Source of the DNA: an uncultured Ectothiorhodospiraceae bacterium
Lineage (GTDB): Bacteria > Pseudomonadota > Gammaproteobacteria > Nevskiales > Oceanococcaceae
DNA: 64,000 nt
NCBI GenBank assembly: GCA_937141935.1
Contig: CAKZQS010000027.1
Coordinates: forward strand, 1-64,000
Direction of reading: 5' to 3'
This document shows positions 8,295 to 9,882 of the stretch, piece by piece. The first letter of the stretch is position 1. Every line of letters begins with the position of its first letter. The notes below the pieces were generated by a model. It worked only from the letters and a program-made list of their open reading frames with translations. It was not told the origin of the DNA and made no database searches. The position numbers and the translations under genes are program-made.

Positions 8295-9080
8295 ATGGAC
8301 CATTCCCTGTGGGTCGCCAAGACCGGCCTGGACGCGCAACAGACGCGCATGAGCGTCATTGCCAACAACCTGGCCAACGTCAACACCACCGGCTTCAAGA
8401 AAAGCCAGGCCAGCTTTGAAGACCTGATTTACCAGAACGTGCGCGCCGCCGGCGGCCAGACCTCGCAGCAGACCCGTGCCGCGACCGGTCTGGAAGTGGG
8501 CACCGGCGCCCGGCTGGTGGCCACCGAGCGCGATTTCTCGCAGGGCACGCTGGCGCAGACCGACAATGCCCTGGACGTGGCGATCACCGGCCGCGGTTTC
8601 TTCCAGGTGCTGCGCCCGGACGGCACCACCGCCTACACCCGCGACGGCAGCTTCTCGCTAGACAGCGAGGGCAACCTGGTCACCGCCAGCGGCTACCAGA
8701 TCCTGCCCGGGCTGACCGTGCCGCCCGGCGCGCAGGGCCTGATCATCGGCCAGGACGGCAGCGTGGCCGTGCAGGTCGATGGCAGCGCGGTGCCGCAGGA
8801 GACCGGCACGCTGACGCTGGCCGACTTCGTCAACCCCGGCGGCCTGGAGGCCGCGGGCGAGAACCTCTATGTCGAAACGGCCGCCAGCGGCGCGCCGCAG
8901 ATCGGCGCCCCCAATGCCGACGGGCTGGGCGCGCTGCGCCAGGGTGCGCTGGAGTCCTCCAACGTCAATGTGGTCGAGGAGCTGGTCGCGATGATCGAGA
9001 CCCAGCGCGCCTACGAGCTGAACTCCAAGGCCATCGAGACCTCCGACCAGATGCTCGCTTATGTCAACAACAACCTGTAA
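8295..9080 (+). CDS. flgG: Flagellar distal rod protein FlgG
   Basis: Builds the distal rod that passes through the P- and L-rings. 261 residues, the family's standard length. Motifs are SVIANNLANVNTTGFKKSQA (about 17-36), DFSQGTLAQTDNALDVAITG in the middle, and the C-terminal LESSNVNVVEELVAMIETQR then AYELNSKAIETSDQML. The start has an excellent ribosome site (AAAGGAGAGCACG). Directly after its stop the operon is interrupted by a cluster of hairpins before flgH, unlike the tight spacing elsewhere. Confidence 0.96.
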   Translation: MDHSLWVAKTGLDAQQTRMSVIANNLANVNTTGFKKSQASFEDLIYQNVRAAGGQTSQQTRAATGLEVGTGARLVATERDFSQGTLAQTDNALDVAITGRGFFQVLRPDGTTAYTRDGSFSLDSEGNLVTASGYQILPGLTVPPGAQGLIIGQDGSVAVQVDGSAVPQETGTLTLADFVNPGGLEAAGENLYVETAASGAPQIGAPNADGLGALRQGALESSNVNVVEELVAMIETQRAYELNSKAIETSDQMLAYVNNNL

Positions 9081-9082
9081 GA

Positions 9083-9158
9083 AAACGCTGATTCATCAGC
9101 GTTTACGCGCGGGCCCTGGACGGCCCGCCGCGAATCCTTGGCCTAAGCCATGGATTCG
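9083..9158. repeat. Cluster of three palindromic hairpins between flgG and flgH
   Basis: Three consecutive inverted repeats. (1) AAACGCTGA / TCAGCGTTT, 9 bp with a 4-base loop (9083-9104). (2) GCGGGCC / GGCCCGC, 7 bp with a 6-base loop (9109-9128). (3) CGAATCCTTGGC / GCCATGGATTCG, 12 pairs with one mismatch and a 4-base loop (9131-9158). Such clusters resemble REP-type extragenic palindromes or a compact non-autonomous repeat. The sequence that follows to about 9240 may belong to the same element. It coincides with the place where a normal flgH start and signal peptide should be. Confidence 0.75.
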
Positions 9159-9192
9159 GCGGCGGCGAGTGCGGACATGCGCCGCGCTCGCC

Positions 9193-9882
9193 GTGCGCTG
9201 GGAAGCCCTGGATGGACGTCTTCAGCGCTGGATTCAGCACGCGTCGGCCCTGCTGGCCGCGCTGCAGCTGGCCGCCTGCGCCAGCGCGCCGGTGGAGCCG
9301 CCGCCGCTGCCCGAGCCGGTGGCGCCGCCGCCGCCAGTGCGCAGCAGCGGCTCGCTGTACGAGCCCGGCAACAGCCTGTCGCTGTTCGCCGATACCCGCG
9401 CCCGGCAGGTGGGCGACGTGCTGACGGTGGTGCTCGAAGAGCGCACGAGCGCGCGCAAGTCCGCCACGACCTCGACCAGCAAGAACCAGAGCGTGGGCTT
9501 CGATGTGCCCAGCCTGTTCGGCGCCAGCATCCCCGAGGGGCGGCTCAACGCCGAACTCTCCGGCGACCGCAGCTTCGAGGGCAGCGGCGACTCGGCCCAG
9601 TCCAACCAGCTCAACGGCGAGCTGACCGTGCGCGTGATCGAGCGGCTGCCCGGCAACACGCTGCGCATTGCCGGCGAGAAGCGGCTGCGGCTGAACCAGG
9701 GCCTTGAAACGCTGCGGCTGCAGGGGCTGGTGCGGGTCGAGGACATCGGCCCCGACAACACCGTGCCCTCGCATCGCATCGCCAATGCCGACATCAGCTA
9801 CAGCGGCCGCGGCGCGGTGGCCGATGCCAATGCCCAGGGTTGGCTGGCCCGCTTCTTCAACTCGCCCCTGTGGCCCTTCTAG
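9193..9882 (+). CDS. flgH: Flagellar L-ring lipoprotein FlgH (start uncertain)
   Basis: Forms the L-ring in the outer membrane. The mature part is unmistakable: lipobox LQLAAC with the Cys at about 9277, then [36 protein letters not shown] and the ending [14 protein letters not shown]. The N-terminus is problematic. The only in-frame start codons are an ATG at 9061 inside flgG, which would give a 72-residue leader, and GTGs at 9169 and 9193. I use 9193, which gives an export signal of 28 residues before the Cys, though with a weak charge pattern and no ribosome site. The palindromic cluster just upstream may have displaced the ancestral start. The stop overlaps the ribosome site of flgI. Confidence 0.85.

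Follow-up and report, generated by a model that had tools for sequence, protein, structure and literature searches.

A probable IS5-type MITE of five hairpins at the overlapping flgG-flgH junction and a predicted element-coded extension of FlgH

In the 64,000-nt stretch of DNA analyzed here (the window), an IS5-type MITE has probably inserted at the stop codon of flgG, within an overlapping flgH, and would now supply FlgH with an element-coded N-terminal extension. Insertion of such an element at the overlapping flgG-flgH junction is well supported, and it accounts for an FlgH that lacks an ordinary start in the window. The block of hairpins between flgG and flgH is a copy of a repeat that is dispersed in the genome and absent from relatives, the ends of the repeat are IS5-like, its copies abut stop codons, and the flgH reading frame is open through it. 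From these observations we infer the order of events, translation of the element and the start codon used.

A dispersed repeat of five hairpins

The flgG gene (8295-9080, forward strand; TIGR02488, E 6e-114) ends in a TAA stop codon that adjoins the left end of the element, and five successive hairpins on the same strand occupy positions 9083-9228, so that the block reaches from the stop codon (9080) to about position 9229. Most of the neighboring flg genes are tightly packed; an earlier note on this DNA had said as much of all the others. The three hairpins named in that note are present. H1 (9083-9104) has perfect 10-bp arms, the 5' one of which serves as the left terminal inverted repeat (GAAAACGCTGA, with the consensus GGAARCGCTGA); H2 (9109-9128) has the loop CTGGAC where the family usually has ANGGAN; and H3 (9131-9158) has 12-nt arms (92%). 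The block is nevertheless longer than the earlier note had it, as it also includes H4 (9162-9194) and H5 (9195-9228). The 3' arm of H5, TTCAGCGCT, is the right terminal repeat, and the usual TTCC-YTAR is missing from the right end of H5 in the flgH copy. A 201-nt stretch covering the hairpins has a predicted folding energy of -102.1 kcal/mol (z = -4.4), which none of 200 shuffled sequences equaled. No intrinsic terminator was called within 9080-9230. The hairpin stretch of the window had no Rfam match over the gathering score, and six other loci of the repeat matched only neighboring tRNAs.

The segment is not unique in its genome, the point on which the earlier note had proposed a blastn search. 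With positions 9078-9260 as the query, blastn against the window's own genome (G000) returned about 12 strong places, with matches of up to 152 nt and 75-84% identity. A covariance model (R1) built from eight copies gave 36 matches at a cut-off of E <= 0.01, which correspond to about 30 places once partial reverse-strand matches are removed. The flgH copy (9081-9229, forward strand) is the top-scoring match at 165 bits, being itself a member of the training set. The element is about 150 nt long, and thus shorter than 500 bp, and contains no transposase gene; like MITEs in general, it occurs in multiple dispersed copies with a lineage-specific distribution. The same model found zero copies in the sister species (G001), in another genus of the same family (G002), and in G003. 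The G001 orthologs of two further insertion sites, one following ssb and the other a gene for a SPOR-domain protein, are likewise empty. Shortened copies form tandem clusters at two places in G000, one with a spacing of about 100 nt (C5:32617-33226; L083, L009) and the other with a spacing of about 130 nt (C52:51931-52314). A minimal palindrome, TTAA-GGAAACGCTGATTTATCAGCGCTTCC-TTAA, is found at C46:19251-19282 (L062) and consists of the terminal repeats with the core absent.

IS5-like ends and their position at stop codons

The best copies begin with YTAR-GGAARCGCTGA and end with TCAGCGCTTCC-YTAR, and YTAR is the reported target duplication of IS5 (PMC10359306). Intact duplications flank two copies (CTAG/CTAG at L074 and CTAA/CTAA at L076). 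YTAR is present at 12 of 21 right ends and 5 of 21 left ends, compared with 1.1% of background positions. The flgH copy has no clean target duplication, as its left flank is GTAA and its right end has neither YTAR nor TTCC, and we assume that the duplication was lost by decay or a small deletion. Old MITE copies are described in an excerpt of the review PMC10969869 as frequently lacking their target duplications.

A search with the end of the repeat found a complete 1,232-nt IS in a different genome of the same order (G028). This IS has ends GGAAACACTGATCAAGTCC with TTAA on both sides, and its transposase belongs to the IS5 family (NF033581, E 1.6e-94). The element end GGAAGCGCTGAACAAGTCC matches that of the IS at 16 of 19 bases. 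A transposase in the same genome is usual for MITEs, although not strictly required, and the IS5-family transposase domain PF01609 has no match in G000; the element is therefore not obviously mobile at present. Two other sources of the ends were considered and set aside: the single PF01609 locus of the sister species (L166) has ends that do not match, and a plasmid search for similar ends gave chance-level matches only. The sister species has MITE-like elements of its own (L061, L063, L065, L067), which share the end type YTAR-GGAAGCGCTGAAGAAATCC and differ in their interiors. Judged by its sequence, the dispersed repeat, including the flgH copy, is very probably a non-autonomous IS5-type MITE with five hairpins. 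The mobile extragenic palindrome proposed in the earlier note is thus retained as a mobile palindrome, of this type rather than a REP.

An end of the element lies no more than 4 nt from the stop codon of a neighboring gene in 15 of the 21 copies with flanks, in either orientation (in G000, 5 ends at stops are in sense and 12 in antisense). The GC content of the genome is 71%, and of the 33 YTAR sites in the 64-kb window, to which this census is confined, 20 are at gene stops, 8 are in coding sequence and 5 are elsewhere, i.e., 20 of the 25 non-coding sites are stops. The copies abut stop codons because most non-coding YTAR sites in such a genome are stop codons, and given this choice of target together with the loss of insertions within genes, the pattern in G000 needs no special mechanism. 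Only the flgH copy, 1 of the 21, lies inside a gene. Related elements in three other genomes (G038, G048 and G026) have TGA flanks, and 9 of 14 such copies are exactly on a stop codon compared with 11 of 40 non-coding TNA sites (p ~0.004), a modest excess given the few sites and the simple gene predictor. The TGA-type ends may belong to another IS5-family subgroup. Ends of the form TGA-GAGCTTGTGAA...TTCACAGGCTC-TGA were seen in G038 (L208, L209, L216, L222, L226-L228, L230), G048 (L210) and G026 (L224), and these five-hairpin elements are mostly exactly on TGA stops in sense orientation.

The element resembles IS5-family MITEs (IS5 group, YTAR target) in its shortness, its many copies, the absence of a transposase gene, the YTAR duplications, and terminal inverted repeats that resemble those of an intact IS5-family IS. 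It differs from them in having no parental transposase in its genome, in its regular, covarying five-hairpin core, and in its ends at stop codons; no direct precedent for stop-codon-targeting MITEs was found in the literature library searched. Rickettsia palindromic elements (RPE) are likewise palindromic, about 150 bp long, and inserted in frame within protein genes, but according to the excerpt of PMC10969869 close to half of the RPE in the first set lay within genes, whereas such insertion is infrequent here (1 of 21) and precedes a signal peptide that is removed. QMITE2 of Coxiella burnetii is also a MITE and is found mainly in 3' untranslated regions; its duplications are 7-9 bp, and the excerpt of PMC10969869 does not mention abutment to stop codons.

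The flgH reading frame and the junction in relatives

The flgH reading frame (9061-9882, forward strand) is uninterrupted from an ATG within flgG, across the whole hairpin block, to position 9882, and places 72 residues before the lipobox Cys. The hydrophobic core and lipobox of the lipoprotein signal peptide lie at 9235-9279 (Cys codon 9277-9279), and mature FlgH (9277-9882) is intact, as the earlier note had stated (NF001304, 256 bits with a cut-off of 247; PF02107, 194 bits). The in-frame ATG, GTG or TTG codons before the hydrophobic segment are limited to those that the earlier note had listed, namely the ATG at 9061 in flgG and the GTGs at 9169 and 9193 (9193-9195, inside the element). 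None has a clear Shine-Dalgarno sequence, in agreement with what had been said of the GTGs. The duplex energies are 0.4 kcal/mol for ATG 9061, -5.6 for GTG 9169, which stems from GGCGGCGG, and -3.0 for GTG 9193, where random positions have a median of -2.7 and a 5th percentile of -7.7, and flgG and flgE have -8.7 and -7.4 kcal/mol.

Since all the usual starts for FlgH are in flgG or in the element, the FlgH precursor should carry element-coded residues, and since no usual in-frame start occurs between 9193 and the hydrophobic core, these should number at least 12 if an ordinary start is used. The earlier note had the element supply the N-terminus of FlgH; the frame through the element is indeed open, and translation of these residues is predicted from that frame, with more than one candidate start codon. 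Codon usage is coding-like at 9229-9276 (score 0.52) and not at 9082-9192 (-0.28), i.e., the element-derived codons are not coding-like. Several other copies of the element also have this frame open, and for this reason we do not take its openness at flgH as evidence of selection.

In the sister species, represented by one genome whose mature FlgH is 65% identical, the flgG-flgH junction has no element, and 70 nt separate the flgG stop from the lipobox Cys codon compared with 196 nt in the window, a net difference of +126 nt or 42 codons. A full-length copy with a 4-nt duplication would amount to 156 nt, likewise a multiple of three, and the flgH copy may since have lost about 30 nt at its right end. 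In G001 flgH has a single plausible start, an ATG located 20 nt upstream of the flgG end, from which the protein would read MSTTTSDNSKPDRGIWLPVLYLGTLWLFGGC; by inspection this ATG has no Shine-Dalgarno sequence, which fits translational coupling to flgG. The equivalent ATG in the window is that at 9061, which is therefore likely ancestral. The 72-residue leader given for it in the earlier note is correct, but this ATG, whose leader had been called non-signal, is likely the original start rather than a spurious one. Comparison of the sequences suggests that the flgG-flgH overlap is likely ancestral in the genus, and so the element would have landed within flgH. The G002 junction also lacks the element; there an ATG preceded by GGAGG follows the flgG stop at a distance of 13 nt. 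The junction is short in most other relatives as well. The segment is thus not conserved at this site, and the comparison of junctions that the earlier note had suggested favors its proposal of a mobile palindrome at the 5' end of flgH, as does the presence of other copies in the genome.

These findings are consistent with the following course of events. An IS5-type element would insert at YTAR, which outside coding sequence in a GC-rich genome is mostly a TAA or TAG stop codon, and the target duplication would re-create the stop codon of the upstream gene, which would therefore be unharmed. As the start of flgH in this genus lies within the 3' end of flgG, an element landing on the flgG stop would also land inside flgH, between its start and the hydrophobic part of the signal peptide. 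The frame may have remained open, or loss of the right end may have restored it. FlgH would then be made with an element-coded extension, from ATG 9061 (a leader of 72 residues) or GTG 9193 (28 residues), and the extension would be removed along with the signal peptide to leave mature FlgH unchanged. Overlapping genes, in which one stop codon lies inside the next gene, may in this way offer a route for an element that is harmless at stops to become protein-coding.

Hairpin conservation and alternative explanations

The covariance model identified related elements beyond G000. Among 85 genomes of the order, G053 had 21 matches and G038 had 12; G048, G026 and G010 had a single strong match apiece, and weaker matches came from G044, G012, G015 and G072. 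At least five genomes of the order other than G000 contain related elements with five hairpins. In an alignment from six genomes with four modeled hairpins, 93.4% of the cells are paired, and two-sided changes are found in 33 of 42 pairs; none of the 500 shuffles or of the slid controls reached this covariation, with figures somewhat inflated by fitting the alignment to the structure of the model. Conservation between genomes is higher in the H2 loop (0.69) and H5 loop (0.74) than in the stems (0.51). The H2 loop has the form CNNGGANG in 30 of 32 copies, GGA is present in 30 of 32 copies for H2 and likewise for H5, and a GCAA tetraloop is frequent in H3. The hairpin architecture and GGA loops are kept while the arms and ends change, from YTAR ends in G000 and G053 to TGA-flanked ends in G038. 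In one alignment (A4), the GGA-containing H2 and H5 loops (CANGGANG) are kept while the stems covary, and they resemble CsrA/RsmA sites, which an excerpt of PMC4894983 describes as GGA motifs. With a family that occurs in several genera, covaries strongly and is absent from Rfam, the question of why hairpins are retained in some MITEs becomes testable.

Could the element instead be kept between flgG and flgH as a structured RNA, with the frame through it incidental? The earlier note had raised hairpin-mediated coupling or processing between the two genes as a further possibility. The very strong covariation across genera and the well-conserved GGA loops argue for a role of this kind, such as a processing site, a 3'-end stabilizer, or a candidate CsrA/RsmA-type binding site. 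We consider it unlikely, however, as translation of FlgH would even then require a start codon ahead of the signal core, and the H2 loop of the flgH copy is CTGGAC and not ANGGAN. Copies also abut stops in both orientations, which argues against a strand-specific RNA role, and we do not accept the covariation as proof of one. A broader proposal is similarly doubtful, namely that the elements are an undescribed mobile five-hairpin family, patchy in the order, that settles at stops as a portable 3'-end RNA regulator (e.g., a candidate CsrA/RsmA site) and at flgG-flgH acts as an operon regulator while also being coding sequence.

Another explanation, to which we give somewhat less weight still, is that a one-base sequencing error at about 9212-9245 shifts the frame, and that FlgH starts at the ATG at 9212 in the last hairpin with most of the element untranslated. 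This ATG (9212-9214), which is out of the flgH frame, follows a GGGAAG-like stretch (-4.2 kcal/mol), and the first residues would form an ordinary n-region. Against this, the frame from 9061 is entirely open, and as ATG 9212 itself lies within the element, the element would supply the FlgH start even so. The least probable reading, and a very improbable one, is a REP/BIME moved by a RAYT (REP-associated tyrosine transposase). The element shares with REP/BIME its extragenic palindromes, its dispersal, its position at gene ends and, in part, its tandem clusters, but no Y1_Tnp domain (PF01797) was found in G000, and the ends instead carry inverted repeats of the IS5 type, with duplications of 4 nt. 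With the insertion of an IS5-type MITE as the preferred reading, one further feature of the wider family may be recorded: in genomes other than G000, two copies of the element have a tRNA gene close by (L208:781-853 and L225:745-817).
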